64,000 nucleotides of DNA, taken from Aquamicrobium aerolatum DSM 21857. GTDB lineage: Bacteria; Pseudomonadota; Alphaproteobacteria; Rhizobiales; Rhizobiaceae. The stretch lies in NCBI RefSeq assembly GCF_900113935.1, contig NZ_FORF01000002.1:124001-188000 (forward strand), read 5' to 3'. Below, in pieces: positions 45,733 to 61,043 of the stretch. Position 1 is the first letter of the stretch. The number at the start of each line of letters is the position of its first letter. A program made the position numbers and the translations under genes. A model generated the notes under the pieces. It saw only the letters and a list, made by a program, of their open reading frames with translations, did not search any database and was not told the origin of the DNA.

Positions 45733-47067
45733 TCAGGCGCTACCCTTAGGCTTGCCGAAGCTTCGCTTCAGAGCTTCGCTGATCTCGAGCGGCCGCGACG
45801 ATGATTGCGGGACTTCATTTTTTGGTGAAGCCCCCTCCCCTCCCCCGCCGTCTGGTTTCCGGGCATCGTCTAACCGTGCCCGCAGCAGCGCCATGATCAT
45901 CGGCAGCGCAGAATATTTGCCCTCACGCGCCTTGTCGGTGAGGCTGCGCAAATAACCGCCCGCGCTGCTGATCTGCTCTGAACGTTGATAAATCCCGGCA
46001 ATCGTGATCGCAGCCTGCTTGTCGCCCATGGCCGTGCGCGCTTCTTCCCACGCGCTGGGGCTCACGCCGAGCGTTGAACGCGCTATTCCCGCCGCCGCCA
46101 GCAATTCCCGCCAGCTCCGGATTGGCTCACCGCCCTTTGCGAGCCAACCGATAGTGGGGCAAGCGTCCAAAACTATGGTTAACGGAAGCTCTCGCTCTGG
46201 CAGAACGTGTACGTTGTTGGTCGTGGGATCTACCGCTGCGGCCGACTTCTTTTTTTCTGAGTCTATAGATTCAAGATTAGAGTCTGGTTTTGAATTCTGT
46301 ATGTGGCGACCGGAATGGGACTCATTGGCAACCGAAATCTGAGTTTTTGCAAATGATTCCAACACCTCACGCAGTTCCGTCCAAAGTCCGTGGAGATCAG
46401 TGGCTACGTCCTCGGCAACCAGCCTTCCAGCGTTGCGCGGCAGCCTGCTGATGATCTCCTGGTAGGTGAGCAGCACCCTCCCCCAATTCCCGGGCACCTT
46501 CTCCTCGATCGCCGTGTCGATCATCTTGACGATATCACGACGCAGAAGCGTCAGCCGTTCCCTGGCAACACGCAGCGCTTTCTTTTCAGCCTGAACGCTT
46601 TCTGCGAGCGCCCCGAACTCGGCCGCACGGGCGAGCACCGGCGACAGATCGAAGCCATAGGCCTGCTGGATCTCGCCATCACGTCCCTTGCGGGCAAATC
46701 GTTTTCCATTGGGGCTGTCGCGGCGGATGATGAGACCGCAATCAACAAGAATGGCGAGATGGCGGCGCAAGGTCGTCGCCGGCATGCCATTGGCGCGTGC
46801 CATCAATTGTTCGTTGGACGGCCATACGACAAGCTCGCCGTCTCCGGCCAACTCGGGCTCTGGATGGAAAGAAAGCAACGCGTTGAGGATTGCCAGGCCC
46901 CGATCGGTCGCGCCGATGAGATCCCTTGCCTCGCGGATGTGACGAAACACTTCCCATTTGTTCGCACGCGTGCCGGCCGGGATATCCCGCGCAGCTGCCT
47001 GACTTGCGATCATGCCAAGCGACATCGCTCGCCGCCCAAAGGGCGTCGCTACGAAATGCGTCTGCAT
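45733..47067 (-). CDS. repC: Replication initiator RepC
   Basis: RepC (444 aa) is the initiator that binds the origin located within its own gene. The N-terminal domain matches the family: FGRRAMSLGMIASQAA, KWEVFRHIREARDLIGATDRGLAILNALLSFHPE, VVWPSNEQLMARANGMPATTLRRHLAILVDCGLIIRRDSPNGKRFARKG. A Ser/Asn-rich low-complexity linker (~250-285) coincides with an AT-rich DNA stretch, then the C-terminal domain. ATG 47067 has a good AGGTGGGAG site. It lies 180 bp after repB, with a ctRNA encoded on the other strand between them; expression is expected to be limited by that RNA. Confidence 0.97.
   Translation of the reverse strand: MQTHFVATPFGRRAMSLGMIASQAAARDIPAGTRANKWEVFRHIREARDLIGATDRGLAILNALLSFHPEPELAGDGELVVWPSNEQLMARANGMPATTLRRHLAILVDCGLIIRRDSPNGKRFARKGRDGEIQQAYGFDLSPVLARAAEFGALAESVQAEKKALRVARERLTLLRRDIVKMIDTAIEEKVPGNWGRVLLTYQEIISRLPRNAGRLVAEDVATDLHGLWTELREVLESFAKTQISVANESHSGRHIQNSKPDSNLESIDSEKKKSAAAVDPTTNNVHVLPERELPLTIVLDACPTIGWLAKGGEPIRSWRELLAAAGIARSTLGVSPSAWEEARTAMGDKQAAITIAGIYQRSEQISSAGGYLRSLTDKAREGKYSALPMIMALLRARLDDARKPDGGGGEGASPKNEVPQSSSRPLEISEALKRSFGKPKGSA
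46225..46360. other. Putative replication origin (oriV) inside repC, AT-rich with clustered GANTC
   Basis: The repABC origin is known to lie in an AT-rich part of repC. Here an AT-rich block interrupts GC-rich coding and contains three GANTC (CcrM) sites within 26 bp (46259, 46268, 46280) and a fourth at 46355. Boundaries are approximate and the assignment is by analogy. Confidence 0.6.
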
Positions 47068-47137
47068 TTTTCTCCCACCTTCTTTCAGGCAAAAGAAATC
47101 CGCTCGCCAAAACGGCGCGATGGAGCCAAAAAGACTC

Positions 47138-47166
47138 TTGACGCTGATTCCAGGAAATGCGATTCT
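47138..47166 (+). promoter_or_regulatory. Predicted ctRNA promoter
   Basis: TTGACG (47138-47143) and GATTCT (47161-47166) are separated by exactly 17 bp on the plus strand, opposite to repABC, and stand a correct distance before the ctRNA terminator. GATTC sites for CcrM methylation occur in the spacer (47146) and in the -10 itself (47161). Confidence 0.65.
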
Positions 47167-47172
47167 CTAGCT

Positions 47173-47225
47173 ACCACACTACGAGAAGGGCTTCCGGGAT
47201 ACTGTTTCGGGGGCCTTTTTCTTTT
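47173..47225 (+). ncRNA. Counter-transcribed RNA (ctRNA, incA-type) of the repABC locus
   Basis: In repABC replicons a ~50-60-nt RNA encoded between repB and repC, antisense to the operon, represses repC and sets copy number and incompatibility. Here a plus-strand promoter is followed by a predicted ~50-nt RNA starting near 47173 and ending in an intrinsic terminator: stem AGG(G)CTTCCG with CGGGGGCCT (one bulge, G-U pairs) and TTTTTCTTTT (47187-47225). Position, orientation and length all fit the known class; exact ends are predicted. Confidence 0.8.
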
Positions 47226-47247
47226 GCGGTTCAGTTCTCCGTTAGAC

Positions 47248-48267
47248 TTACTGGTTTGATTTGCGGAAGGCGTCGTAGAGGTTGTCCAGATTGTCGGACA
47301 GCCACGTACCAAACGGCTTCGCATCCCTGTCTGTGAGCTGCAGCGTCATCCCCTGACGGCCAACCTTGGTTGCCACCGCCACGGTCTTGTCAGCCGCACG
47401 CCACGTGTGAGCGTCCTGCGCCCGCCGTCCTGGCTTCACCTCGGCGCGATCAAGCTCGGCAGCAAGAAACTCCAACCTGCGATCACTATCGAGCGCCACG
47501 AAATCGGAAGTCTGGGCAATCTTGCGCGCGCGGGATGCAACATCATCGTCGCGCAGTTTCACTGCCAGCCTGTACCACCGGTCGCGACCACTGGCGCGCG
47601 CGGCGCCGATCGACGCCACGAGGTCAGTCGGCATATCCTTTGCGACCGACAACATCTTTGACACCACCGTCTTGTCGACGGAAAGCGCAGACATGATAAC
47701 GTCTCGATCGTAGCCGCGCGTTTCCAGGCTATGGGCAAAGACAGCCTTCTCGATGAAGGAGAGGTCCGCGCGTGCGCTGTTTTCCTGGCCCTGGGCGATG
47801 ACGTGCGCCCGGTCGTCGAGCTGCTTGATGACCGCGCGAACCTTGCGGTCAAGTGCCTTGGCAGCCCGGACGCGACGGTGGCCGAAAACGGTCATGTAGC
47901 GACCTTCGGCTTGCGGATGCGGACGCACCAGAACGGGACTGTCCTGCCCCCTCTCCCGGATGGCGGCGAGCAGCTCCTCGAACGCCTCGCTGTCATCATC
48001 CAATCGGTCGGCGATGAACGACACGTCGATCAATCCCGGGTCGAGATCGATCACTGTTTCGCCGTCGAGGAGCCTGGCTTCAAATTCCTTGACCGCTTGC
48101 GCCTTCTCGGCGAGTTCGTCGATCGAGCGCGTGATTGCACCGAACGCACCGCGTCCGCGGTTGCGCTCCATTGCGGGGGACAGCGAAGCCTCCGGCGCTT
48201 CTTCGGCCGGGTTGACCGCAGTCAACTTTCTCTCGGTCAACGAAACAAGGAGGTTCTTCCGAGCCAT
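47248..48267 (-). CDS. repB: Plasmid partitioning protein RepB (ParB family)
   Basis: RepB (339 aa) binds parS and, with RepA, segregates the replicon. Family features are MARKNLLVSL at the start, the nuclease-like ParB core (QDSPVLVRPHPQAEGRYMTVFGHRRVRAAKALDRKVRAVI, ~110-150), the HTH (FIEKAVFAHSLETRGYDRDVIMSALSVDKTVVSKMLSV, ~165-205), and a C-terminal dimerisation part. ATG 48267 overlaps the repA stop (TGATG); a further in-frame ATG at 48282 is possible. A parS copy lies inside its 5' coding end (48211-48226). Confidence 0.96.
   Translation of the reverse strand: MARKNLLVSLTERKLTAVNPAEEAPEASLSPAMERNRGRGAFGAITRSIDELAEKAQAVKEFEARLLDGETVIDLDPGLIDVSFIADRLDDDSEAFEELLAAIRERGQDSPVLVRPHPQAEGRYMTVFGHRRVRAAKALDRKVRAVIKQLDDRAHVIAQGQENSARADLSFIEKAVFAHSLETRGYDRDVIMSALSVDKTVVSKMLSVAKDMPTDLVASIGAARASGRDRWYRLAVKLRDDDVASRARKIAQTSDFVALDSDRRLEFLAAELDRAEVKPGRRAQDAHTWRAADKTVAVATKVGRQGMTLQLTDRDAKPFGTWLSDNLDNLYDAFRKSNQ
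48211..48226. repeat. parS partition site within the 5' end of repB
   Basis: GTTGACCGCAGTCAAC fits the repABC parS consensus GTT-NN-C-N-GC-N-G-NN-AAC and is identical to the copy upstream of repA (49598-49613). It encodes residues near RepB position 14-19 (TAVNP region), so the site is constrained both as DNA and protein. Confidence 0.9.
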
Positions 48268-49463
48268 CACCGACGTCCCCATGCAGCATTAATCAGGTCA
48301 GCAATCTCCCCATTGACGAGCCGTAGTGATTCCATCGCACGGTCATAGGTCGCCCGGGTGAACTGGGAACGGTCGACCTCGTAAAGCGTCTGCTTTGTGA
48401 TGCCCGCGTCCGAAATCGCTGTGCTCTTGAGCATTTCATTGACAAGCACGTGACTCTTGAAGATCGCACGCATGAACGCGACCATCTGGCTTTGCGGCCC
48501 GTCGGTGGGCTCGTAACGCGTCACCAGATAGCGCAGCCAGTCAAGTTGCATATTTGCGCCGGCGCGTTTGAGCGTGCCCATCACCTCGCCCATCATCATC
48601 AGGAACTGGCACATCGACATGACGTCGAGCATCTGCGGGTGGACGGTAATCAGAACGCTCGTCGACGACGATAGCGCCGTCAGCGTCAGATACCCCAGCT
48701 GCGGTGGGCAATCGATAACCACCACGTCGTAATCGTCCGCGACATCGGCGAGCGCGTCATCGAGACGACCGAAGAAGATCCGCCCCATCGACCCGTCATT
48801 GCGAGCGAGCGCCAGCGGCGTATCGTATTCGTATTCCTGCAGTTCCAGATTGGCCGGAACAATGTGCAGGCCGGGGAAATTGGTCGGACGCACCAGATCC
48901 TTGAGCGACTTGCGTTGATCGTCATAACGCAGCGCTTCGTACAACGACTCATTGTGGTCGATCTCGGGCTGGAAGCCGTGCAGCGCAGACAATGACGCCT
49001 GCGGATCAAGGTCGATCGCCAACACCCGGTAGCCCTCAAGCGCTAAATGCTGGGCGAGGTGAGCGGTGGTCGTCGTCTTGGCGCTGCCGCCCTTGAAGTT
49101 GACCACCGACAAGATCTGCAGGTGTTCGGCTCCGCGACGGTGCGGCACATATTTAGGAATGCGCGCGCTCTTGTCGAGGAAATGACGCATCTCCAGCATC
49201 TGCTCAGCCGTATAGGACCGGCGACCGGTCGGCGTCACAGCGGGGAGGGGCCCTTTGCCCTCAAGCGACAGGTTCTTCAGATAACCGGCGCTGACACCAA
49301 GATAGGAGGCGACTTCGGCGATCTGGAACGGGCGCAGCGTCTTGTGCGCGTTGGGGGGAAACATCTCCAGCCGATGCTCGTGCAACATCGCAGAGAGGTC
49401 GCTGGCCTGCTGTGTTACAAGCAGATCAACGTCATCAATTTCCCTCTGGGCTTTCACTTGCAT
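48267..49463 (-). CDS. repA: Plasmid partitioning ATPase RepA (ParA family)
   Basis: RepA (398 aa) is the ParA-type ATPase of replicon segregation and autorepressor of repABC with RepB. An N-terminal MerR-like helix-turn-helix region (FQIAEVASYLGVSAGYLKNLSLEGKG) precedes the deviant Walker A NFKGGSAKTTTT (~122-133), the Walker B stretch VVVIDCPPQLGYL and the ParA tail. ATG 49463 is chosen; a GTG at 49484 would add seven residues. It is first in the operon, with a parS and a CtrA box upstream. Confidence 0.96.
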   Translation of the reverse strand: MQVKAQREIDDVDLLVTQQASDLSAMLHEHRLEMFPPNAHKTLRPFQIAEVASYLGVSAGYLKNLSLEGKGPLPAVTPTGRRSYTAEQMLEMRHFLDKSARIPKYVPHRRGAEHLQILSVVNFKGGSAKTTTTAHLAQHLALEGYRVLAIDLDPQASLSALHGFQPEIDHNESLYEALRYDDQRKSLKDLVRPTNFPGLHIVPANLELQEYEYDTPLALARNDGSMGRIFFGRLDDALADVADDYDVVVIDCPPQLGYLTLTALSSSTSVLITVHPQMLDVMSMCQFLMMMGEVMGTLKRAGANMQLDWLRYLVTRYEPTDGPQSQMVAFMRAIFKSHVLVNEMLKSTAISDAGITKQTLYEVDRSQFTRATYDRAMESLRLVNGEIADLINAAWGRR

Positions 49464-49559
49464 ATTCACTGAAAAATCTCGCACATGCGTTTTGAAGGCT
49501 ATTTTAGCCGTACAACCGCATCTAGCTCTGATTCTCAGTTTGCAGCAAGGATTTTAAAG

Positions 49560-50596: not shown

Positions 50597-50631
50597 AAAA
50601 AGACATGTCCGCGACCAGGGGCGCGGACATG
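50597..50631 (-). terminator. Rho-independent terminator of the pyr operon
   Basis: A perfect 10-bp stem (CATGTCCGCG 50604-50613 / CGCGGACATG 50622-50631) is followed on the minus strand by TCTTTTT. It lies ~140 bp after the last minus-strand gene of the pyr series. Confidence 0.85.
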
Positions 50632-50767
50632 AAAAAAGGCGACACTGATCGCCTCGCAATTTTTTGATTTCCATCCCCCCGCCGGACAACGAACCGGACC
50701 CTTGCGGGTACCGGTTCGTGACGGCAACAGGAATTTTACGGACCGGCCCAAGAAGCCAGCCGAACAA

Positions 50768-51091
50768 TCAGCTCGGGTCGACCAGCTTTGCAGCGGCCGC
50801 GTTGAGCACAGCCAGCTTTTCTTCAGCCGAAGCGCCACCGGCATATGCCTTGTCGAGCGAAGTCAGCAACGTGCTGAAAAGCTGGAACTCCTCGGCAGCT
50901 TCGTCGGCCGTCAGCGGCTGATCGTCGTAAGCGTCCACGAAATGCTGGGCAGCGTATGAGATCATCAGAAGTGCCGCCGCATTGTCGGGTTCACCGGCAA
51001 CACGGGCACGAGCAGCACGAACGACCGCATCGTAGGCACGAACGCCACCACCATGCTCGTTCAGGTCCTTCATGAAAACGTCAAACATCAT
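50768..51091 (-). CDS. Hypothetical helical protein downstream of pyrE
   Basis: This 107-residue protein is acidic and mostly helical (MMFDVFMKDLNEHGGG, RARVAGEPDNAAALLMISYAAQHFVDAYDDQPL, LLTSLDKAYAGG). I recognise no domain. It starts at ATG 51091, 14 bp after the pyrE stop, with AAGGA as ribosome site, so it is translated from the pyr transcript, and a terminator follows. A companion role for pyrE is possible; nothing in the sequence proves it. Confidence 0.75.
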   Translation of the reverse strand: MMFDVFMKDLNEHGGGVRAYDAVVRAARARVAGEPDNAAALLMISYAAQHFVDAYDDQPLTADEAAEEFQLFSTLLTSLDKAYAGGASAEEKLAVLNAAAAKLVDPS

Positions 51092-51105: not shown

Positions 51106-51801
51106 CTAGCGCGGCAACTCCGAAATACCGCCATTGTTGGCCGACCACTGCACGGGTGCAGAAAGGAAGCTTTCCACCTGTTCAATGGTTTCGTTCGAGA
51201 AACGCTTTTGTTCCTTGGCAACCTTGAGGATGTCCCACCAAGTCGCAAGATAATGAAGACGGATCCCCGCAGCCTCGAGCTTCTGCGGCGTGTCGGGGAA
51301 GATGTCGTAATAGAACACGGCAAAGGTATCGGTGACCGTCGCGCCTGTCTTGGCAACCGCTTCGGCAAACTTGATCTTGCTGCCGCCATCGGTGGTCAGG
51401 TCTTCCACGAGAAGAACCCGCGCGCCTTCGGCGAGCGAACCTTCAATCTGCGCGTCACGTCCAAAGCCCTTAGGCTTCTTGCGCACATACACCATCGGCA
51501 AGCCGAGACGATCGGACAGCCATGCTGCAAAGGGGATCCCCGCCGTTTCGCCACCGGCGACAGCGTCGAACTGTTCGAAGCCAACGTTGCGGAAGATCAC
51601 CGACGCGGCGAAGTCCATGATGGCCGAGCGGATGCGCGGGTAGGAGATCAGCTTCCGGCAGTCGATATAGACCGGGCTCGCAAGGCCGGAAGTGAACGTA
51701 TAGGGCTGATCGGTACGGAAGTGCACGGCATTAATTTCGAGCAGCATCTTGGCTACTGTCTCAGAAATTACCGCGCGATCCGGGAATGTGTTTGAGAACA
51801 T
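51106..51801 (-). CDS. pyrE: Orotate phosphoribosyltransferase
   Basis: PyrE (231 aa) joins orotate and PRPP to give orotidine 5'-phosphate. It has [20 protein letters not shown] (36-55), [21 protein letters not shown] (106-114, active-site loop) and the PRPP-binding motif [12 protein letters not shown] (129-140). Length and motifs are those of the alphaproteobacterial enzyme. It starts 59 bp after pyrC, the largest gap in the downstream part of the cluster, and could have its own promoter. It may serve de novo synthesis, orotate salvage, or both. Confidence 0.97.
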
Positions 51802-51860
51802 GGCTGCATCCTTCTGTTGACCGCGCCTCTCGCTATCAACTTAGCCGCTTTCTCGCCAGC

Positions 51861-52901
51861 CTAGTGTTCGAGATTCCAGTGGATCGCGAACATTGGATCG
51901 AACAGTGTGACTTGACCATCGCCAGTTTCGATCTTCGCAGGGAAGGCTACCGGCTCATCATAACGCCGAAGCGTCACCATCTGTTCGCTCACCGGAAGCC
52001 GGTAGAACGCCGGCCCGTTCAACGAAACAAAGGCTTCCAGCTTGTCGAGCGCGTTTTCCTCTTCGAAGACATGCGCAAGGCAACCCAGCGTATTGGTCGA
52101 CGAAAAGACGCCGGCACACCCACACGCGCTTTCCTTCAGCGGATCAACATGCGGTGCCGAATCGGTGCCAAGGAAGAAACGGGAGTTTCCGGAGGTGGCA
52201 GCTTTGCGCAGGGCCAGCCGGTGGACTTCGCGCTTTGCGATCGGCAGACAGTAATAATGTGGACGGATGCCGCCCATGAACAGCGCGTTGCGGTTGATGA
52301 TCAAATGATGCGTGGTGATCGTCGCGCCGATATTGTCACCGCCGCCACTGACATAATCAACGCCGTCCTTGGTGGTGACGTGTTCCATGATCACGCGCAA
52401 TTGCGGGATGCGCTGGCGCAGCGGCTCGAGAACCTTCTCGATGAACACCGCCTCACGATCGAAGATGTCCACGGAAGGATCGGTGACTTCGCCATGGACG
52501 CAGAGTGGCACGCCAGCTTCGGCCATGCGCTCCAGAACCGGCAGCACATTCTCGAAGTTGCGAACGCCGCTTTGCGAGTTCGTGGTCGCACCTGCCGGAT
52601 AGAGTTTCACTGCGGTGATTGCGCCGCTCTCAAAACCGGCCACGACATCGGCGGCGTCGGTCGCTTCCGTCAGATAGAGGGTCATCAGGGGCGTGAAATC
52701 GTGGCCCGCGGGGAGGGCGGCCATGATCCGCTCGCGGTAGGCGTTGGCCTGCGCCGTCGTGACCACGGGCGGCACCAGGTTGGGCATGACGATCGCACGC
52801 CCAAAATGTTCAGACGTATGCGGCAGGACCGCATTCAACACCGCGCCATCGCGAAGGTGAAGGTGCCAGTCATCCGGTCGGCGGATCGTCAGGGTCGTCA
52901 T
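51861..52901 (-). CDS. pyrC: Dihydroorotase, class II (PyrC)
   Basis: Dihydroorotase reversibly interconverts dihydroorotate and N-carbamoyl-aspartate. This 346-residue E. coli-type enzyme has the metal motif HLHLR (13-17), the carboxylated Lys99 in [28 protein letters not shown], and the catalytic [10 protein letters not shown] (~250). ATG 52901 overlaps the amidohydrolase stop by 4 bp (ATGA). Coupling to a carbamoyl-amino-acid hydrolase is unexpected for a purely biosynthetic enzyme and suggests it can also run toward carbamoyl-aspartate. Confidence 0.97.
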
Positions 52902-54175
52902 TCGTGCCTCTTGAGAAACTCGTGAACGATATCTGTGGCGGCGATGAAATCGTCCAGTTCCATCGCTTCCTGCGGATTGTGCGAGCCATTGGCGTTGCGC
53001 ACGAAGACCATTCCCGAAGGAACGCCAGCGGCAGCAAAGACAGCGGCGTCGTGGCCGCCACCCGACGGCATCACGAAGGGCTCTTGCCCCACACGTTCCA
53101 TAGCAGCCTTGAGCCCTTCTACAAGATGCGGCGCGCATAAGGCCGGCTCGACGCTCATCTCTTCGTCAAGCTCAAAGCGAATGCGACGCTCCTTCTCGAC
53201 CTGCTGCATCTCGGCATGCAGAAGGCGGCGCATGTCGTTCAGCGTCTTGGGGCTCTGGCTGCGCACATCGAGGCTGAAGGTGATTTCATCCGGGATACGC
53301 GACATGGCGTGCTGGGCAGGATCGGTTCCCACCATGCCGCTGGTCAGCACCAGGTCATCACCCATGTTGAGGATGGTCGACCAGCTTTCGTCGAGTCGCC
53401 CCAAGAGGTCGGCCATGGCAAAAACCGGATCGCGGCGGAACGCGCGCGGAACGGCGCCGGAATGACCTGCTTCACCAATGCAACGCACGTGACGGTGGCG
53501 GAAATTGCCACGAATACCGGAAACTACCGCTGCAGGAATTCCCTTGCCGACGAGGAGGGGGCCTTGCTCGATGTGAAGCTCGATATAGGCCTCGACCTGC
53601 GAGAGATCCATGAGAGGAACAGCGGAGCGGATCCGGTCCATCGGCAGACCGGTATCGGCCATATGATCGTCGAGCGAGCGCCCATCACCCTTGTGGGTCG
53701 CTTTCAGTTCGCCTTCGGCCAGCGTCCCGGTCAGAGCCTTCGAGCCGATATAGCAGGGGCCGAACCAGGCGCTTTCCTCGCCGCGCATCGCCAGCACATG
53801 AACCGGTCGCGCAAAACGCTCGCCCGCGCGATGGGCGCGCAGGAGGCAGACGAGCCCGGCGACAATACCAGCCAGCCCGTCGAAATTGCCGCCGAACGGC
53901 ACACTGTCGACGTGGGAACCAACGAGCACGTAACGCTCGGCGTCCTTGTCATGGGGAAGGCTGAACCTTGCGTTCAGACCGGCGTCATACCAGACGGCCA
54001 GACCTTCCTTGCGCGCGAAACTCTCCAGAAACTGCAGCGTCGCAGTTTCGATGGACGAGAAGGCCGGACGGCTGACCCCCTCGACATCGCGTGTCTGCGC
54101 GGCGATCTCCTCGAAGAGGTAACGCGCGATTTCGATGTCGGACGTTTCGTCGAGGCGCTCGCGCAGGGCTGTCAT
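52898..54175 (-). CDS. M20-family Zn-dependent amidohydrolase (N-carbamoyl-L-amino acid hydrolase/allantoate amidohydrolase type); candidate ureidosuccinase
   Basis: This 425-residue member of the carbamoylase/allantoate amidohydrolase group has metal residues in [16 protein letters not shown] (~86-101) and [20 protein letters not shown], the family mark [12 protein letters not shown], the lid segment [11 protein letters not shown], and HDAAVF near the C-terminus. Such enzymes hydrolyse N-carbamoyl groups to amine, CO2 and NH3. Lying between pyrD and pyrC with 4-bp overlaps on both sides, its natural substrate is most simply N-carbamoyl-aspartate, the product of reversed PyrC. That substrate is inferred; carbamoyl-beta-alanine or allantoate are alternatives. 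Confidence 0.88.
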
Positions 54176-55116
54176 GGAGCAGCCTCCATGAAGACGACCC
54201 CGGGGTCCTGTTCCTCGTCGATGACACTGCCGATGACGTCGCGGACCGAACTGTAGCCGCCGCTCGCCAGCAGAGCCTCAAGATCGGTGACGATCTTGGG
54301 CATGATTGCCGGATCGATGAAGGTGGCGGTCCCTACCTGCACAGCTGTGGCCCCGGCAATCAGGAATTCCAGCACGTCCTCGGCATTGGAAATGCCACCG
54401 CAGCCGATCACTGGAATATTGGTGGCGCGGGCACATTGATAGGCCATACGCAGAGCGATCGGCTTCAGCGACGGGCCGGACAGGCCACCCATCAGATTGC
54501 CGAGTTTCGGCTTGCGCGTGCGAATGTCGATGGCCATGGCCAGAATGGTGTTGGCCACCACCAATGCATCAGCACCACCTTCTTCCGCAGCACGCGCGAC
54601 TTCTGGCGTCTCGCCAGTGTTTGGCGTCAGCTTGGCCCAGAGCGGGAGATGCGTCGCCTGGCGCAGCTTGCACATCACATCGTAAGTGGAGGAGGGGCGT
54701 ATCGCGAACGCCTTGCCGTCTTCCTCGATATTCGGGCAGGAAATGTTGACTTCGATGGCGTCAACACCCTCGACAGTGACTTCCGAGCACAAGGTCGCAA
54801 ACTCATCGGCGGTGTTGCCGGAGATGCTGACGACCAACGGTGTCTTGTACTGCTGGTAGAAGGGGACAACCTTCTCGATGAAGTAACCGACGCCCTTGCT
54901 GGGGATGCCGATGGAATTGAGCATCGAGCCCGACACTTCGCACACGCGCGGCGTCGGGTTGCCATCTCGCAGACCGCGCGTGATGGTCTTGGTCACATGC
55001 GCGCCGATCAGATCGAGATCGAACACGTCCGCCAACTCCTCAGAGAACGTTCCCGAGGCAGGCATGATCGGATTTTTCAGCTTCAGCGAGCCGACGTCGA
55101 CACCAAGATCTACCAT
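54172..55116 (-). CDS. pyrD: Dihydroorotate dehydrogenase, class 1B catalytic subunit
   Basis: This 314-residue FMN enzyme matches the NAD-linked class 1B rather than the quinone-linked class 2 usual in proteobacteria. It has NPIMPASGTF (15-24), TKTITRGLRDGNPTPR, the catalytic cysteine loop NISCPN (Cys127), KLTPN, VANTILAMAIDIRTRKP, GGLSGPSLKPIALR and GCGGISNAEDVLEFLIAGATAVQVGTA. Class 1B works only with a PyrK partner, encoded immediately upstream with a 7-bp overlap. Class 1B can run either direction with NADH, so it could reduce orotate. Confidence 0.95.
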   Translation of the reverse strand: MVDLGVDVGSLKLKNPIMPASGTFSEELADVFDLDLIGAHVTKTITRGLRDGNPTPRVCEVSGSMLNSIGIPSKGVGYFIEKVVPFYQQYKTPLVVSISGNTADEFATLCSEVTVEGVDAIEVNISCPNIEEDGKAFAIRPSSTYDVMCKLRQATHLPLWAKLTPNTGETPEVARAAEEGGADALVVANTILAMAIDIRTRKPKLGNLMGGLSGPSLKPIALRMAYQCARATNIPVIGCGGISNAEDVLEFLIAGATAVQVGTATFIDPAIMPKIVTDLEALLASGGYSSVRDVIGSVIDEEQDPGVVFMEAAP

Positions 55117-55952
55117 GGCATGGCCTCCTGCATGTCAAAGACCGGGCCTTCGCGGCAAACGCGAAGATTGACCTGGCCGCCATCCTTGCGGAACGGGCGG
55201 ACGCAGCAGTGGCACATGCCAAGGCCGCAGGCCATTTGCTGTTCCAGCGCGATTTCACCGGGAATATCGTGGCGCTCGCCGATTTTCTGCAAGAGGCGCA
55301 GGATGCGGTTTGATCCACAGGTATAAAACGCATCGACGCCATCCAGCGCGACGAGCTGCTCGATTACCGCTTCTAGGTTTTCGATGCTCGACGTGCCATC
55401 CGTGTCGGTAACCGTAATGACGCGTGCGCCGAGCGCCTCGAAATACTCCACTGACATCAGAACGTCAGCGCTACGCGCGCTGCAGATTGCCGTCAGCTTG
55501 CGACCAAGCCGCTTGGCTTCGAGCGCCAGGGGGGCAAGCGTTGCAAGGCCAACGCCACGCGCCACCAACACCAAATGGTCCCAGTCATCTTCAATGGTAA
55601 ATCCGCGCCCCAGCGGACCGAGAACGTTCAGCGTGTCGCCTGTCTTCAAATGCGACAGAGCGCGCGTGCCTTCGCCCGTCACCTTGTAGAGAAAGTGCAG
55701 TTCACCCTTCTCGGGGTAGAAGCCGTAAATGCTCATCGGACGGCGCAGATATGGCGTCTCGCCGCCGATCTGCGGGCAAAGCAGATGAAAGAACTGGCCG
55801 GCATGGCACTGTTCGAGCAGTTCAACCGGAGCCGAAAGGATCATCAGTCGGTACTCGCCGTTGACCGGCTCATTGGAAATAACGGGCAGATCACGCTCGA
55901 AGGCAACCGGGTTGGTTGGTTCGAGCGCGCTGCTTCTCACTACAGCATTCAT
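55110..55952 (-). CDS. pyrK: Dihydroorotate dehydrogenase electron-transfer subunit PyrK
   Basis: PyrK (280 aa) carries FAD and a 2Fe-2S cluster and links class 1B PyrD to NAD. The FAD domain has LRRPMSIYGF (~69-78) and the NAD domain GPLGRGFTI and VARGVGLATLAPLA. The cluster cysteines are Cys242, Cys247, Cys250 and Cys266 in CGLGMCHCC and RVCREGPVF. It starts 7 bp after the TRAP dctM stop, so transporter and oxidoreductase share one transcript. PyrK is typical of Firmicutes and uncommon in alphaproteobacteria, which hints at transfer. Confidence 0.94.
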   Translation of the reverse strand: MNAVVRSSALEPTNPVAFERDLPVISNEPVNGEYRLMILSAPVELLEQCHAGQFFHLLCPQIGGETPYLRRPMSIYGFYPEKGELHFLYKVTGEGTRALSHLKTGDTLNVLGPLGRGFTIEDDWDHLVLVARGVGLATLAPLALEAKRLGRKLTAICSARSADVLMSVEYFEALGARVITVTDTDGTSSIENLEAVIEQLVALDGVDAFYTCGSNRILRLLQKIGERHDIPGEIALEQQMACGLGMCHCCVRPFRKDGGQVNLRVCREGPVFDMQEAMPW

Positions 55953-55959
55953 ATTTCCA

Positions 55960-57243
55960 TCAACCCATTACGAGATTTGGCAGGAAGGTGGATACCGGCG
56001 GGATGTAGGTGATGATCATCAGCGTCGCGAGATTGGCGACGATGAACGGTCCGATGCCGGAAATAATCAGCATCACCGGCTTGGACAGCGTCGACGAAGC
56101 GACAAACAGGTCCAGTCCAAACGGCGGCGTGATCATGCCGACGGTAATGTTCAGTGTCACGATGACGCCAAAGTGGACCGGGTCGATGCCAAGCGCCATC
56201 GCGACCGGATAAAGCGGCGGAACGAGGATCAGCAATGCCGAATTCGGGTCAACGAACATTCCGAAAACCAGGAAAATCACGTTGATCACGATCAGGAAGA
56301 CAAAAGGACCGGCGTCAATGTAGCTGATGAACGTCAGAATCGCCTGCGGAACCTGCGCCAGCGTCACAAAATAGGAAAGCAGACCGCCCAGTGCGAGGAG
56401 GATGAAGATGATTGCGGTCGAAAGAGCAGCACGCTCCGTAATGGCAAACAGCTTCTTCAACGTCAGAGTACGGAAGATCACGCTTTCCACGAAGATTGCA
56501 TAGACAACGCTAGCAGCAGCAGCTTCAGTCGGCGTGAAATAACCGGTGTAGATGCCACCAAGGATGATCACAGGCATCCCGAGCGCCCACTTGGCGCGGG
56601 AGATCGACTGCAGCCGCTCGCGCCAGCTGGCCTTTTCGCCGCGAGCCACGCCGTGCTTGCGCGCTTCCCACCACACGAGAAGGGCAAATGAGAGAGCGAG
56701 CACCAGCCCTGGCACGATACCTGCAAGAAACAGCCGAGCCACGGACGTACCGGTCATCCAGCCATAGATGATGAAGGTAATCGACGGCGGCAACAGCAGC
56801 GAGGTTTCCGCGCTCGACGCGATCAGACCAAGGCTGAACTTATCCTTGAAGCCGGCCTTCTGCATTTCCGGGAACACCATACGTCCCATTGCTGCAACTG
56901 TTGCCGGGGCAGAACCCGAGACGGAGCCAAATGCAAGCGAGCCGCCAATGGCAGTGTAGCCCGAACCGCCGCGGAAATGGCGCAGAAACGCGTCAGCAGT
57001 TGAGGTCAAGCGACGCGCGATCTGGCCATCGCCCATCAATTCGGCAGCAAGAATGAAGAACGGGATGGCCAGAAGGGTCGAGTGGTTGATGCCACCAACG
57101 ATCTTCTGCACGATTACCGGGTCCGGCAGCGAGCCGTAGAAGAATTCCTTGACCATGAGAGCCGGCACGCCGAGCACGAGAAGCATCTCGAAGCCCAGCA
57201 CCAGCATAGCCACTGCTGTGACTGCAACGACCAAAAGAAGCAT
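55960..57243 (-). CDS. dctM: TRAP transporter large permease (DctM)
   Basis: This 427-residue inner-membrane protein, with ~11-12 hydrophobic helices, is the proton/sodium-coupled permease of a TRAP importer. Family landmarks are PFFILAAELMGDGQIARRL, GSLAFGSVSGSAPATVAAMG, SSAETSLLLPPSITFIIYGWMTG, YTGYFTPTEAAAASVVYAI and ITPPFGLDLFVASS. The start overlaps the dctQ stop (TGATG). The stop is 7 bp before pyrK, tying transport to dihydroorotate metabolism. Confidence 0.96.
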   Translation of the reverse strand: MLLLVVAVTAVAMLVLGFEMLLVLGVPALMVKEFFYGSLPDPVIVQKIVGGINHSTLLAIPFFILAAELMGDGQIARRLTSTADAFLRHFRGGSGYTAIGGSLAFGSVSGSAPATVAAMGRMVFPEMQKAGFKDKFSLGLIASSAETSLLLPPSITFIIYGWMTGTSVARLFLAGIVPGLVLALSFALLVWWEARKHGVARGEKASWRERLQSISRAKWALGMPVIILGGIYTGYFTPTEAAAASVVYAIFVESVIFRTLTLKKLFAITERAALSTAIIFILLALGGLLSYFVTLAQVPQAILTFISYIDAGPFVFLIVINVIFLVFGMFVDPNSALLILVPPLYPVAMALGIDPVHFGVIVTLNITVGMITPPFGLDLFVASSTLSKPVMLIISGIGPFIVANLATLMIITYIPPVSTFLPNLVMG

Positions 57244-57740
57244 CAGTGTCCCCCGTCCTGTGCGGAATAGCGGTCGATCACGCCAAAAAGGCTCAGGGCA
57301 TAGCGCAGCGCCAGCAACAAAAACCCGATGGTCGGAGCCAGATAGATCCAGAAAATAGGCATGTTCAGCGTCGGGCTGATCTGGCCGGTCGAATAGACGA
57401 AAACGGTCATCCCATAGCCAAGCCACGCGAGATACACGCAGAACAGAACAGCGACGACGTCAATAAGCTTGCGAATTGGCAACCCAAGGCGCTTGGCGAT
57501 ACGGTCACGCCAGCTGTAGACGCCAACCTGGCGGCCCTGTTCGAGCGCAAGCCCAAGGCCAAAGAACACCAGGAACAGGCTCATCAGACGGACGGCCTCC
57601 TCGATCCAGGCGAAATTGGTGGCGAAAGTGCCCCCAACCTGGCGCGACATCACGTTGACGAAATAGAGAGTGACCATGACCAGAAAGATCGTCACAACAG
57701 TGACTCTTTCCATGATCCGCAAAGCATTGAGCGCCTTCAT
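57243..57740 (-). CDS. dctQ: TRAP transporter small permease (DctQ)
   Basis: The small TRAP permease (165 aa) has four membrane helices (~10-30, 45-68, 86-108, 128-150) and the family pattern NFAWIEEAVRLMSLFLVFFGLGLALEQGRQVGV. ATG 57740 is preceded by GGGGGGA; a TTG 17 codons earlier is rejected. It follows dctP after a gap containing a strong terminator-like hairpin, so the permeases are probably expressed at lower level than the binding protein. Confidence 0.93.
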   Translation of the reverse strand: MKALNALRIMERVTVVTIFLVMVTLYFVNVMSRQVGGTFATNFAWIEEAVRLMSLFLVFFGLGLALEQGRQVGVYSWRDRIAKRLGLPIRKLIDVVAVLFCVYLAWLGYGMTVFVYSTGQISPTLNMPIFWIYLAPTIGFLLLALRYALSLFGVIDRYSAQDGGH

Positions 57741-57785
57741 ACGGCTTTCCCCCCAAGGCCCTGCAACATCTTCAGAGGCCTGAAA

Positions 57786-57820
57786 CAAAAAAGGCGACGT
57801 CTACATAAGCAGACGTCGCC
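57786..57820 (-). terminator. Terminator/attenuator between dctP and dctQ
   Basis: A perfect 10-bp stem (GGCGACGTCT 57793-57802 / AGACGTCGCC 57811-57820, 8-nt loop) is followed on the minus strand by six T residues. It begins 15 bp after the dctP stop and probably ends most transcripts, giving excess binding protein while some read through to the permease and pyr genes. Confidence 0.85.
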
Positions 57821-57834
57821 CGTTCAATTCGTCA

Positions 57835-58857
57835 TTACTTCGTGACGGAAGCGTATTCTTCTTCGTAGATCGAGATCAGGCTCTGGCCTTCATCACCGGT
57901 ACGGCTGAGAAATGCCGCGCGGGTGGCCGGATACATCTTCTCGCGAAACTCTGCCTTCTCAGCAGCTTCCATTTCGCGAACGTCGATACCCGACGCCTTG
58001 ATCTCTTCAAGGGCAGCCTTCACCGACTCAGCCTTATGAGCAATCAGTTCCGGGACCACCTCGACGAATGCGTCGGTAATAACGGTCTGGTACTCAGCCG
58101 GCAGGCTGTTCCAGAACGTCGGGTTGAACAGGACAACGTCTTCCATTGCGCCATGATCGGAGACCACGAGATGCTTCTGCACTTCGTAGTACTTCATGCG
58201 CTGGATGGTATCCATCGGGTTTTCCTGCGCGTCGATGACGCCAGTCTGCAGTGCGGTGTACAACTCACCGAACGGCATCGCAATAGCCGACGCACCAAGT
58301 GCGTTGAACTGCTCGATCAGGATATTTGAATCCATGACGCGGAACTTCTGTCCGGCGAAATCGCCAACATTTGCCAGCGGGCGGTTCGACGTGAAGTGCT
58401 TCTTGCCATTCGGCCACAGCGTTACGCAATGAACACCACGGCTCGTGAACGTATCACAAAGCGCCTTGCCAAACGCACCACTGCGAATTTTCTGAGCCTG
58501 CTCATCATTGTCCGGCAGCAGGAAAGGAATGTCGAGAATGGAAACGACCGGGTTGAAGCCGCCGAGGAATGCCGCCGGGGCAACCGTTGCCTCAAGCGTC
58601 CCAAGCTGGACACCTTCGGTCATCTCGCGCTGCTGGCCGAGCTGGCCCTGCGGGAAGATCTGGAATTCGACAGCGCCATTGGTGCGCTCTGCGACGAGAG
58701 CCGCAACCTTTTCAAGGTGCACATGGCGCGACTGCTGTGCAGCCTCCAGGTGACCAATCTTCGCTACGAAGTCTGCTGCCCAGACGGAGGAAACTGCCGC
58801 CACACTGACGACACCTGCCATTGCAATTGACTTAAGCCCGCGAACAACGCTGTTCAT
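57835..58857 (-). CDS. dctP: TRAP transporter periplasmic solute-binding protein (DctP)
   Basis: This 340-residue periplasmic protein has a Sec signal peptide (~1-28, ending SVWA) and the DctP fold: HVHLEKVAALVAERTNGAVEFQIFPQGQLGQQREMTEGVQLGTLE, LDIPFLLPD, the ligand-carboxylate arginine region GQKFRVMDSN, GELYTALQTGVIDAQENP. TRAP proteins bind organic acids; the downstream pyr enzymes make orotate, dihydroorotate or carbamoyl-aspartate plausible ligands, all carboxylates. ATG 58857 has an excellent GGAGGTGGGGA site. First gene of the operon. Confidence 0.95.
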   Translation of the reverse strand: MNSVVRGLKSIAMAGVVSVAAVSSVWAADFVAKIGHLEAAQQSRHVHLEKVAALVAERTNGAVEFQIFPQGQLGQQREMTEGVQLGTLEATVAPAAFLGGFNPVVSILDIPFLLPDNDEQAQKIRSGAFGKALCDTFTSRGVHCVTLWPNGKKHFTSNRPLANVGDFAGQKFRVMDSNILIEQFNALGASAIAMPFGELYTALQTGVIDAQENPMDTIQRMKYYEVQKHLVVSDHGAMEDVVLFNPTFWNSLPAEYQTVITDAFVEVVPELIAHKAESVKAALEEIKASGIDVREMEAAEKAEFREKMYPATRAAFLSRTGDEGQSLISIYEEEYASVTK

Positions 58858-58898: not shown

Positions 58899-58968
58899 TC
58901 GTATCGGACAATCTCTCAACTTGTCAATCTTGTTTCTCAAAAATGAGACAGATTGGCAGGTTGTCTCA
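58899..58968 (-). promoter_or_regulatory. dctP promoter with upstream inverted repeat operator
   Basis: On the minus strand TTGACA (plus 58922-58927) and ATACGA (58899-58904) are 17 bp apart. Just upstream lies the inverted repeat TGAGACA (58944-58950) with TGTCTCA (58962-58968), and a further degenerate copy TTTCTCA at ~58933. The repeat is a candidate site for the divergent XRE regulator. Confidence 0.65.
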
Positions 58969-59059
58969 CAACTGATCCGCGTGCTAAAAATTTCATTGAC
59001 ATGATCCGACCAAACCGGATGCGTTGACGACGCATTCAACAGCATCAGTGAGGCGCGAC

Positions 59060-59983
59060 GTGACCAATCAGACAGCCGATGGAATACGTTTCAGCGATAT
59101 CGGCGCCCGTCTGCGTGCTCACAGGTTGGGAAAGTCCCTATCGGCAGAACAGCTAGCCGCAAAACTCGGCATCTCGCGCGCCGCACTCTATCGCGCTGAA
59201 AAGGGCGAAATCCGCAAGATCGAGACACTGACCAGCATTGCCGGAGAACTGGGCGTGTCACTGCCAAGCCTGATGGGCGTCGGCGTCGAATACGTCAATA
59301 CAGCAATCACTTTCTTTGAACGGATGCGTCAACTGGAAGAGGATTGTAACCAGATTGTCGGGCTTTTCAGTCCGGTTTCCTATCTGCTGACCTCAGATCG
59401 ATATGACGATCTGCTCTCACGCGTACTCAAGGAATCAGTACCTGATGGAATCGACGCCGAAGGCATTCGCGCCGTCGATGCGCTGCTGGAGATCCTGCAC
59501 GCGCGAAAATCGGCCTTCCGGCTTCGTCGGCCGCTAATCGTCAGCCTGATCTCGTCGGTCGACCTGGAGCGGTTCCTGCTTCACGGCATGATCGGGCGGC
59601 ACGACCTGCCGACGGCAGTGGCAGCCGAAAGGCGGCTGGCTGCTCGCCGCGAGGCGGAGCATATCCTGCATCTCCTCGAAGACCAGCCGATCGGCATCCA
59701 GATTGGAATCGTCCGTGAAGCAGTGCCGGCGACGAGCTTCCAGATTTTCCGTCAAGCCGACCGATCGGTCCTGGCCATCAGTCCGTTCCGGCTTGGCGAA
59801 CAGCCGAATGTCAGCCTTGGCGTTGCCCTGATCACCTCCGCTCCGGAGGCGATGGATCTGCATGAAGAGATTGCCGACCGGCTGTGGAACAGCGCGCTCA
59901 AGGGTACCGATGCCGCCGACTATCTGCGCGGCATGATTGCCAAATACGCGATCGAACCGGAGCGGGCACTTCAGCTTTCGTAA
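59060..59983 (+). CDS. XRE-family transcriptional regulator
   Basis: This 307-residue regulator has an N-terminal helix-turn-helix (FSDIGARLRAHRLGKSLSAEQLAAKLGISRAALYRAEKGE, ~10-50) and a long C-terminal domain (~95-300) that I do not recognise and that may sense a ligand (AERRLAARREAEHILHLLEDQPIGIQIG). GTG 59060 with GAGG upstream is the chosen start; TTG 59024 and GTG 59048 are alternatives. It diverges from the TRAP/pyr operon with an inverted repeat between, so it is the probable regulator of that system; inducer unknown. Confidence 0.85.
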   Translation: MTNQTADGIRFSDIGARLRAHRLGKSLSAEQLAAKLGISRAALYRAEKGEIRKIETLTSIAGELGVSLPSLMGVGVEYVNTAITFFERMRQLEEDCNQIVGLFSPVSYLLTSDRYDDLLSRVLKESVPDGIDAEGIRAVDALLEILHARKSAFRLRRPLIVSLISSVDLERFLLHGMIGRHDLPTAVAAERRLAARREAEHILHLLEDQPIGIQIGIVREAVPATSFQIFRQADRSVLAISPFRLGEQPNVSLGVALITSAPEAMDLHEEIADRLWNSALKGTDAADYLRGMIAKYAIEPERALQLS

Positions 59984-60116: not shown

Positions 60117-61043
60117 ATGAAACACAAGATCATTCTGGATTGCGATCCCGGCGTCGACGATGCCGTGGCGCTGATGCTGGCACTGGGAGCGCCTGAGTCC
60201 ATCGAGCTTGTGGGCGTCACCACAGTCGCCGGAAATGTCTCGATTGACGACGTGACGCGCAATGCGCGCGGGTTGCTGGCGCTGGCCGGGCGCACGGACA
60301 TTCCAGTCTATCAGGGATGTTCCCGACCGCTGATGAAAGCAACCGGTCCTCGCGCCTCGGTTCATGGCGAGGGCGGGCTCGGCAATGTCAGGCTCGATCC
60401 CACAGCGGTACCGCTGGGTGACAAGCACGCCGTGGATTTCATCATCGAGACGGTGATGGCAAATCCGGGTGAGATCACGCTTTGCCCGATTGGCCCGATG
60501 ACCAATGTGGCGCTGGCGATGGTGAAGGAACCCCGCCTTGCCGAAAATTTGCGCGAGATCGTCTTCATGGGCGGCGCTGCATTCAGCCCCGGCAACAGCA
60601 CGCCGGCGGCGGAGTTCAACTTCTATGTCGACCCGCACGCGGCACAGATCATGGTTTCGAGCGGGGCAAAGCTGACGATGTTCGGCCTCGACGTGACACG
60701 CAACGTGACTGCGGACCAAAGCTGGTATGCGCAACTCGAGGCGATGCGAGGCGAAATCCCGCCGACCATGGCGCGCATGATGCAGGTCTATGCAAAGGGC
60801 GATCCGTGCATGCACGACCCGTGCGTCATCGCATGGCTGATCGACAGTTCACTATTTTCCGGCGTCGACGCCTATGTCGAGGTCGACCACAGCGCAGGCA
60901 TCAGCTTTGGCCGCTCGCTGGCCTACATGACCGAAAAGCATCGCGCCGGACGCGACATCAACTGCAAGATCATCACGCAGGCCGACAGCGTCGCGGTGTT
61001 CGACCTCATTGCCCAGCGACTGGGCTCGCTTCAATCTTCGTGA
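60117..61043 (+). CDS. Inosine-uridine-type nucleoside hydrolase
   Basis: This 308-residue IunH-family enzyme cleaves the N-glycosidic bond of ribonucleosides to base and ribose. The calcium-binding DCDPGVDDA (8-16), VYQGCSRPL, the HGEGGLG loop (~82-88), PIGPMTNVALA, FMGGA, EFNFYVDPHAA and the catalytic-end segment MHDPCVIAW are all present. It lies 133 bp after the XRE gene on the same strand, next to the pyrimidine operon, so a pyrimidine nucleoside (uridine, perhaps orotidine) is the likely substrate. This is inferred from position. Confidence 0.93.
   Translation: MKHKIILDCDPGVDDAVALMLALGAPESIELVGVTTVAGNVSIDDVTRNARGLLALAGRTDIPVYQGCSRPLMKATGPRASVHGEGGLGNVRLDPTAVPLGDKHAVDFIIETVMANPGEITLCPIGPMTNVALAMVKEPRLAENLREIVFMGGAAFSPGNSTPAAEFNFYVDPHAAQIMVSSGAKLTMFGLDVTRNVTADQSWYAQLEAMRGEIPPTMARMMQVYAKGDPCMHDPCVIAWLIDSSLFSGVDAYVEVDHSAGISFGRSLAYMTEKHRAGRDINCKIITQADSVAVFDLIAQRLGSLQSS

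Follow-up and report, generated by a model that had tools for sequence, protein, structure and literature searches.

What are a transporter and a carbamoylase doing among pyrimidine genes? The question is raised by Aquamicrobium aerolatum DSM 21857, in which a stretch of 64,000 nucleotides (contig NZ_FORF01000002.1, positions 124,001 to 188,000; called the window here, and numbered from its first letter) carries the genes of a tripartite ATP-independent periplasmic (TRAP) transporter in one unit with genes for orotate and dihydroorotate enzymes and an M20-family hydrolase. Orotate is usually seen only as a biosynthetic intermediate. The answer is probably that the locus is a nine-gene regulated orotate-scavenging operon, whose products would import orotate, reduce it, open its ring, and hydrolyze the result to aspartate. 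A preliminary description of this DNA had already proposed import and reductive degradation to aspartate, and that core is well supported by the homology of the binding protein to the Protein Data Bank (PDB) entry 4NN3, by a conserved gene order, and by a separate quinone-type PyrD and a uracil pathway in the same genome.

What does the operon encode?

The nine genes are listed in the direction of transcription, with the supporting evidence in brackets.

57835–58857, minus strand: dctP, TRAP solute-binding protein of the orotate-binding (4NN3) type (PDB sequence match and Foldseek rank 1, both to 4NN3)
57243–57740, minus strand: dctQ, small TRAP permease subunit (Pfam DctQ; the start is the ATG at 57740)
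55960–57243, minus strand: dctM, large TRAP permease subunit (Pfam DctM at residues 70–477 of the long open reading frame; TIGR00786)
55110–55952, minus strand: pyrK, electron-transfer subunit of class 1B dihydroorotate dehydrogenase, with flavin adenine dinucleotide (FAD) and [2Fe-2S] (Pfam PF10418, the DHODB Fe-S domain; PDB 1EP3 chain B)
54172–55116, minus strand: pyrD, class 1B catalytic subunit with an NISCPN motif (PRK07259 above cut-off)
52898–54175, minus strand: M20-family hydrolase, proposed N-carbamoyl-L-aspartate amidohydrolase (TIGR01879 above cut-off; conserved residues)
51861–52901, minus strand: pyrC, class II dihydroorotase (TIGR00856 above cut-off; PDB dihydroorotases)
51106–51801, minus strand: pyrE, orotate phosphoribosyltransferase (NF001729 above cut-off)
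50768–51088, minus strand: ninth gene, a conserved small helical protein without family assignment, last of the operon

The first eight genes are intact, and their order and families are as first described. The gap between dctP and dctQ had been given as 102 bp; with dctQ starting at its ATG it measures 94 nt. The other junctions are confirmed: dctQ and dctM overlap by 1 nt, dctM and pyrK lie 7 nt apart, pyrK and pyrD overlap by 7, pyrD and the M20 gene by 4, the M20 gene and pyrC by 4, and pyrC is separated from pyrE by 59 nt. The listed reading frame of dctM begins further upstream, and homology begins near the ATG of the version given here. Overlooked at first were the ninth gene, which follows pyrE after 17 nt, a divergent XRE-type regulator gene (59024–59983), and a palindrome between this gene and dctP (58935–58948).

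In the proposed mechanism, the DctPQM transporter would bring in orotate; TRAP transporters as a family are Na+-driven. The class 1B enzyme PyrKD, linked to nicotinamide adenine dinucleotide (NAD), would reduce orotate to dihydroorotate, and class II PyrC would open the ring to give N-carbamoyl-L-aspartate. The M20 hydrolase, probably with the ninth protein as a partner, would split this into aspartate, CO2, and ammonia. Alternatively, PyrE could route orotate to orotidine 5'-monophosphate and uridine 5'-monophosphate (UMP). The regulator would control dctP through the palindrome, upstream of the –35 box. PyrC and PyrE would also serve de novo synthesis, its oxidation step being left to a quinone-type PyrD encoded elsewhere. 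All three enzymes of the predicted degradation route (PyrKD, PyrC, and M20) are present in the one unit. A purely biosynthetic pyr operon would have neither a transporter nor a carbamoylase, whereas this unit has both TRAP and M20 genes, and they are conserved together.

Does the transporter carry orotate?

The best PDB sequence match of DctP is 4NN3, with an E-value of 2.1e-136 (2.9e-50 for the runner-up) and 61% identity by sequence alignment. An AlphaFold2 model of DctP, with a mean predicted local distance difference test (pLDDT) score of 88.7, also has 4NN3 at Foldseek rank 1, at 63% identity. The title of this entry names the TRAP protein Desal_2161 of Desulfovibrio salexigens. It is described as crystallized with orotic acid bound and as having Lys in place of the second TRAP ligand Arg (PMC11668362). 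Through 4NN3, orotate as the predicted ligand of DctP has structural backing. The preliminary description knew of no TRAP-coupled system of this kind. A literature search, made largely without subscription papers, found no description of a TRAP-PyrKD-M20 operon, but orotate as a TRAP ligand is not new, being already in print and structurally known.

How widely is the arrangement conserved?

One genome for each of 84,980 species was scanned with a four-row DctP alignment, and 79 loci, from the best 80 of at least 550 relatives, were searched with twelve proteins of the window. Among the 65 loci with a DctP at least 50% identical, M20 occurs in 49, making it the most constant non-TRAP member, and pyrK, pyrD, and M20 occur together in 48. 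The regulator is found in 46 of the 65, the ninth gene in 42, PyrE in 36, and PyrC in 27. Below 50% DctP identity, none of the 14 loci has M20, pyrKD, the regulator, the ninth gene, PyrE, or PyrC above the score limit.

Looking for the order TRAP-pyrK-pyrD-M20 in other genomes had been suggested as a check, and 46 of the 48 loci with all three enzyme genes prove colinear on one strand (the exceptions are loci L066 and L073). Since this gene order recurs in dozens of genomes, the arrangement is more than chance. Within these 48 operons, the ninth gene is present in 42, PyrE in 35, and PyrC in 26; operons without PyrC may rely on one encoded elsewhere. Carriers include Phyllobacteriaceae, Stappia, Pseudovibrio, Rhodobacterales, Chelatococcus, and Desulfovibrio. 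The TRAP-pyrKD-M20 set is also found in at least six records of a plasmid collection; all four records inspected have pyrE followed by a small open reading frame, and none has pyrC in the operon. In Variovorax the order is porin-MFS-pyrK-pyrD-M20-pyrC-regulator-pyrE-small open reading frame (MFS, major facilitator superfamily), which shows the core enzymes combined with a different transporter.

Which reactions would PyrKD and M20 catalyze?

PyrD scores 353 bits against the PRK07259 equivalog (cut-off 269), its best PDB matches are 5UE9, 5KSW, and 1EP1, and its NISCPN motif has the active-site Cys. PyrK is best matched in the PDB by 1EP3_B, with the cysteines aligned. By homology, then, PyrKD is a class 1B dihydroorotate dehydrogenase, in which PyrD is paired with the FAD/NAD and [2Fe-2S] protein PyrK. 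In vivo it would be NAD-linked and work in the reductive direction, as suggested by the neighboring genes and a separate class 2 enzyme. Three DHO_dh-family proteins are encoded in the genome: the operon PyrD, a class 2 quinone-type PyrD (contig C13), and PreA (contig C6). PreA adjoins an NAD(P)-binding partner, an M20 protein, and a dihydropyrimidinase, a cluster that likely encodes the full reductive uracil pathway. Because the quinone-type PyrD and the uracil pathway are separate, PyrKD and the operon M20 look dedicated to orotate. The uracil cluster has its own M20, only 27% identical to that of the operon, so the latter is probably not needed for uracil.

The operon M20 scores 262 bits against TIGR01879 (hydantoinase/carbamoylase; cut-off 204), and no NCBIfam equivalog reaches its cut-off among the 25 of 33 matches listed. 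Residues H88, D99, E133, E134, H201, H375, and H399, taken as the metal and catalytic residues, are invariant in all 33 operon-type rows. The same 33 rows have invariant R131 and R222, and either Arg or Lys at R293. Five M20 relatives in the PDB, two of them the wild type and a mutant of one enzyme, have neither Arg nor Lys at the three corresponding positions. These extra Arg positions would suit a substrate with two carboxylates, and together with the operon context they point to an N-carbamoyl-L-aspartate amidohydrolase. Ureidosuccinase (EC 3.5.1.7) is not known to have an assigned gene, and none was found in the literature search. The M20 subfamily is thus put forward here as a new candidate gene for N-carbamoyl-aspartate hydrolase.

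One could suppose that the true substrate of M20 is some unrelated carbamoyl or ureide compound and that its gene sits beside pyrimidine genes for another reason. M20 carbamoylases are varied, with substrates such as allantoate, N-carbamoyl amino acids, and N-carbamoyl-beta-alanine, and the missing equivalog match fits this idea as well. Set against it are the constancy of M20 among the non-TRAP members, the overlap of its gene with pyrD in the window, and Arg positions that extend across the subfamily and would suit a dicarboxylic substrate. The chance that M20 is such a bystander seems very slim.

Why does the operon hold pyrC and pyrE?

PyrC scores 433 bits against TIGR00856 (cut-off 293), and its best PDB matches are solved dihydroorotases, aligned over nearly the full length. 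PyrE scores 393 bits against NF001729 (cut-off 245). Searches of the genome turn up a single class II PyrC and a single PyrE, each encoded in the operon, and the window PyrE, used as a query against this genome, finds only itself at E ≤0.001. A second PyrE was considered from two matches below the cut-off of a thermophile-type PyrE model and was rejected: one, the best PyrE-like match apart from the operon protein, is an adenine phosphoribosyltransferase, and the other (C26:69166–69450) reaches 22.9 bits. Active class I dihydroorotases carry a DxHxH motif. A homologue of this class, which NCBIfam names dihydroorotase, lies on contig C42 (L093) beside a gene that we take to be pyrB, and its motif reads DARVHIGEPG. 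It appears to have lost the first His of the metal motif and may be dead; if it is active, the operon PyrC is not the sole copy.

The operon PyrE, and apparently PyrC as well, therefore look like the only working copies of the genome, and the operon is not purely catabolic. This bears on two earlier proposals. It had been argued that a carbamoyl-aspartate hydrolase would be futile next to a purely biosynthetic pyrC-pyrD, which speaks for catabolism; with the operon PyrC and PyrE seemingly the sole functional copies, that argument does not stand in its original form for this genome. PyrE had also been assigned to a salvage branch. It can indeed send orotate to UMP, but as apparently the only PyrE it would also serve de novo synthesis. 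Pyrimidine synthesis and orotate breakdown would then share pyrC and pyrE, and regulation or flux must keep the two apart.

How did this sharing arise? In a sample of 121 genomes of the family, DctP is found at E ≤1e-90 in 14, the genome under study included. A genome of the same genus (G098) has both its sole PyrE and its sole class II PyrC match within the operon, as does G055, and a third genome, 76% complete (G043), looks the same. Others carry second copies or encode PyrC or PyrE at another place. A tree of 71 PyrE rows has at least six changes between the operon and stand-alone states, and the window PyrE is nested, with starred support, among stand-alone PyrE proteins of its own family. 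From this nesting, the operon probably took in the housekeeping pair in this lineage. As a separate observation, in genome G007 PyrE is present twice and PyrC is matched in part four times, at separate places (contigs C1, C12, C23, and C27), which looks like a recent rearrangement of the pyrC-pyrE pair.

The presence of PyrE also brings up simple salvage, in which the transporter would feed PyrE and UMP, while PyrKD and M20 would serve only to remove excess orotate or keep the pathway in balance. In favor, 35 of the 48 operons include PyrE, it and apparently PyrC are the sole working copies here, and one locus (L060) retains its TRAP genes, its regulator, and an operator with one mismatch while lacking pyrKD and M20. 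However, in 13 of the 48 the stretch searched contains no PyrE. Salvage also needs neither an NAD-linked reductive enzyme nor a carbamoylase, and the genome has its own quinone-type PyrD. We therefore regard salvage as the main purpose of the unit as unlikely.

How would the operon be regulated?

Three features upstream of dctP form the proposed control region.

59024–59983, plus strand: XRE-type helix-turn-helix regulator, divergent from dctP, proposed regulator of the operon (Pfam HTH_3)
58935–58948, no strand assigned: palindrome TCTCAAAAATGAGA, proposed site of the XRE-type regulator (alignment and motif counts)
58922–58927, minus strand: TTGACA, putative –35 box for transcription of dctP (identical in all 20 rows of the spacer alignment)

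The palindrome is located just upstream of the –35 box. In the alignment of the spacer between the regulator gene and dctP (20 rows, some of which are one genome taken from two collections), the TCTCA half-site and TTGACA are invariant and the TGAGA half-site is largely conserved. Of 54 operon loci, 27 carry an exact TCTCA-N4-TGAGA in the 500 bp before dctP, and 48 carry it when one mismatch is allowed. Among 17 TRAP-only loci, 0 have the exact palindrome and 2 have it with up to one mismatch; among the 14 loci with a DctP less than 50% identical, the numbers are 0 and 1. Exact sites number 34 in total in 1.59 Mb. Additional ones are found in the Agrobacterium locus, in the interval from pyrK to pyrF, and ahead of pyrK in L031 and L073; L026 has one elsewhere. 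No palindrome with at most one mismatch is found in the Variovorax (L008) and Roseomonas (L010) loci, though L008 nonetheless has a related regulator. These counts suggest that the XRE-type regulator binds TCTCA-N4-TGAGA. New here is a regulon of operon loci that usually share this type of regulator and the palindrome.

What is the ninth protein?

The ninth protein of the window has no match in Pfam, PHROGs, or NCBIfam, and its relatives have weak ones below the cut-offs. Could the gene be a chance open reading frame? This was rejected, since a profile search finds it in 42 of the 48 operons and since it is fused to M20 in two loci. In these, L009:7592–9250 (Agrobacterium) and L031:13917–15575 (Martelella limonii), the ninth protein forms the C-terminal part of M20. 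The fused proteins have 552 and 553 residues, compared to 416–436 in the other 53 rows, save for 501 in L041, which probably reflects an early start. The predicted structure (pLDDT 93.7) has five helices, and its fold has no PDB match at E ≤0.001. An annotated small gene near pyrE in L010 was tried as a relative and is unrelated by alignment.

A search of 385 genomes of the class, with at most 12 candidates scored per genome, found the protein in three. The first is the genome under study. In the second (G476), a TRAP-pyrK operon with an exact palindrome lies about 7 kb away, the remainder of the operon being beyond the fetched stretch. In the third (G731, L166:2421–8036), the protein is encoded beside a dihydropyrimidinase and a taurine/nitrate-like ATP-binding cassette (ABC) transporter, with no M20 in the fetched 15 kb. 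Because this last copy sits with a dihydropyrimidinase, the protein is not exclusive to orotate operons. The simplest reading is that it is a partner of cyclic-ureide or carbamoyl hydrolases. It is an uncharacterized helical protein family, new here and fused to M20 in two loci.

A bolder version of the proposal would make the last step of the regulon a two-part N-carbamoyl-L-aspartate hydrolase, composed of the M20 subfamily with its extra Arg positions and the five-helix protein, the two being separate in most operons and fused in two, and would have one Phyllobacteriaceae lineage absorb the housekeeping pyrC-pyrE. We offer it tentatively, as an idea with less than an even chance of being right. 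If the absorption is real, pyrimidines are made de novo with the help of an operon whose purpose is to use up the intermediates of that very synthesis, and one regulator would decide whether orotate goes to nucleotides or is burned.

What weighs against orotate breakdown?

Several observations count against orotate import and degradation as the function of these loci. The first concerns the transporter. Residues R173, N213, and K153 of DctP, which we matched to the conserved TRAP ligand Arg and Asn and to the Lys described for 4NN3, are invariant in 53 operon rows, and they are just as invariant in 16 TRAP-only and 12 distant rows. Being common to all three classes, they do not separate them, and the DctP residues examined are mostly shared with TRAP-only proteins. 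The exceptions are L076 and L077, whose DctP relatives, 55–57% identical, have S42, T44, and N240 where the operon proteins have Q, R, and D. L076, without M20, lies beside a Rieske-type oxygenase and an amidohydrolase, and L077 has neighbors of equal lengths; these two transporters likely have a different substrate.

More generally, 16 of the 65 loci with a DctP at least 50% identical are without M20, with three of them (L027, L051, and L071) near contig ends. Other TRAP loci without M20 lie beside amylases (L059), a gene of the mandelate-racemase type (L062), or NadA (L067). Some of the 16 probably carry other substrates, and DctP identity was rejected as sufficient proof of function on the strength of these loci and the unrelated neighbors of several. 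Apart from this question, the TRAP set near nadA (L067:7602–8882) is of the 4NN3 type, and its substrate could be a pyridine acid such as quinolinate.

The enzymes give further counterexamples. An M20 profile, run against 349 genomes of the phylum at E ≤1e-110, has at least six matches, the genome under study included, a lower bound since at most five candidates were scored per genome. The five others are 38–48% identical, and none has PyrK or PyrD within the fetched 16–18 kb, so distant members of the subfamily are not tied to PyrKD. In two of them (L150 and L151), M20 lies beside PyrE, a GntR regulator, and an ABC-type binding protein; these clusters are possibly a different ureide or orotate uptake system. 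Two Desulfovibrio loci (L066 and L046) have M20, pyrC, and pyrE without an in-line pyrKD. L066, one of the 48, has PyrD-like (45%) and PyrK-like (30%) genes on the opposite strand, about 4 kb off, which may be a biosynthetic pair, and the sole counterpart in L046 is a PyrK-like gene truncated by the end of the contig. Finally, the –10 box of the window is poor, and a promoter scan did not list the dctP promoter.

Because neither Desulfovibrio locus has pyrKD in line, the compound taken up there could be dihydroorotate or carbamoyl-aspartate. Extended to the whole group, this would mean import of dihydroorotate, N-carbamoyl-aspartate, or a related ureide acid, with PyrKD oxidative or a side branch. 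Both the TRAP-M20-pyrC-pyrE order in Desulfovibrio and the two genomes in which PyrE and M20 accompany GntR and a binding protein of the ABC type, with no PyrKD in the fetched stretch, agree with such a view. On the other hand, the closest solved relative of DctP was crystallized with orotic acid, and PyrKD follows in line after the TRAP genes in 46 of the 48 operons, which makes it highly improbable that orotate is not the imported compound.

What else is at the locus?

Two further elements belong to the operon itself.

57792–57821, minus strand: 13-pair hairpin and T run in the dctP-dctQ spacer, probably a partial terminator or mRNA-stabilizing element
50604–50655, minus strand: two terminator-like hairpins 3' of the ninth gene, the probable end of the operon (consensus scan, no excess over shuffles)

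The spacer hairpin had been described as an attenuator. The stem and the T run after it do exist, and the stem is the longest in the terminator scan of the window, a scan that gave 12 sites, about equal to the shuffle mean of 10.0 (standard deviation 3.8). A specific role as an orotate sensor was rejected: among 70 dctP-dctQ gaps from related loci, 66 contain a hairpin of at least six pairs, unconserved in sequence, which makes such hairpins a general feature of the spacer, and a T-rich tail follows in just 19 of the 70. An Rfam scan at the gathering threshold has a single match in the window, outside the operon.

The contig has 301,358 bases, in a genome of 3.64 Mb rated 100% complete. About 1.3 kb downstream of the operon is a replication block (45733–49484) whose genes we take to be repABC, and the Rfam match, an S-element RNA (RF00490) at 47065–47143, is in keeping with such a block. 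This places essential-looking genes on a plasmid-type replicon. Downstream of the regulator, a nucleoside hydrolase gene (IU_nuc_hydro, 60117–61043) has the uridine-preferring UriH as its best NCBIfam model, below the cut-off, and tblastn of other operon loci gave no copy of it.

How does the operon compare with known systems?

If the proposal is true, it gives a genetic basis for the use of dissolved orotate in dozens of mostly alphaproteobacterial genomes. It would also supply a candidate gene for ureidosuccinase and tie a known TRAP ligand to a pathway, together with a regulator-operator pair, an unknown protein family, and housekeeping genes inside a catabolic operon. Of most interest are the specificity of M20, the ninth protein, and the use of pyrC and pyrE by two pathways.

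The closest relative of DctP by both sequence and structure is 4NN3 (Desal_2161 of Maridesulfovibrio (Desulfovibrio) salexigens, 61–63% identical), a binding protein with orotic acid bound. Two further Desulfovibrio loci have a related operon that lacks an in-line pyrKD. Classical anaerobic orotate degradation, in Clostridium (Zymobacterium) oroticum, uses dihydroorotate dehydrogenase, dihydroorotase, and ureidosuccinase. The dihydroorotate dehydrogenase of C. oroticum is listed as class 1B (PMC10395836). The operon is predicted to run the same three reactions in the same order. It differs in occurring mostly in Alphaproteobacteria and in including PyrE, the ninth protein, a TRAP transporter of its own, and a regulator of the XRE type with its putative operator.

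Another known carrier, DctA, belongs to a different transporter family from TRAP. Orotate uptake via DctA in Escherichia coli and Salmonella is described as salvage (PMC13328217), and the common feature is a dicarboxylate-type carrier that brings orotate to PyrE. The reductive uracil pathway on contig C6 (PreA, dihydropyrimidinase, and M20) follows a parallel logic of reducing the ring, opening it, and removing the carbamoyl group, but the enzymes and the substrate of the operon differ, and the two M20 proteins are 27% identical. The pyrC-pyrE pair corresponds in sequence and adjacency to the rhizobial-type biosynthetic pair, but here it lies between a carbamoylase gene and the ninth gene, inside a transporter operon. 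Likely, then, the operon links a known pathway to a transporter of a known family, and the resulting conserved and regulated unit is new to the literature searched.

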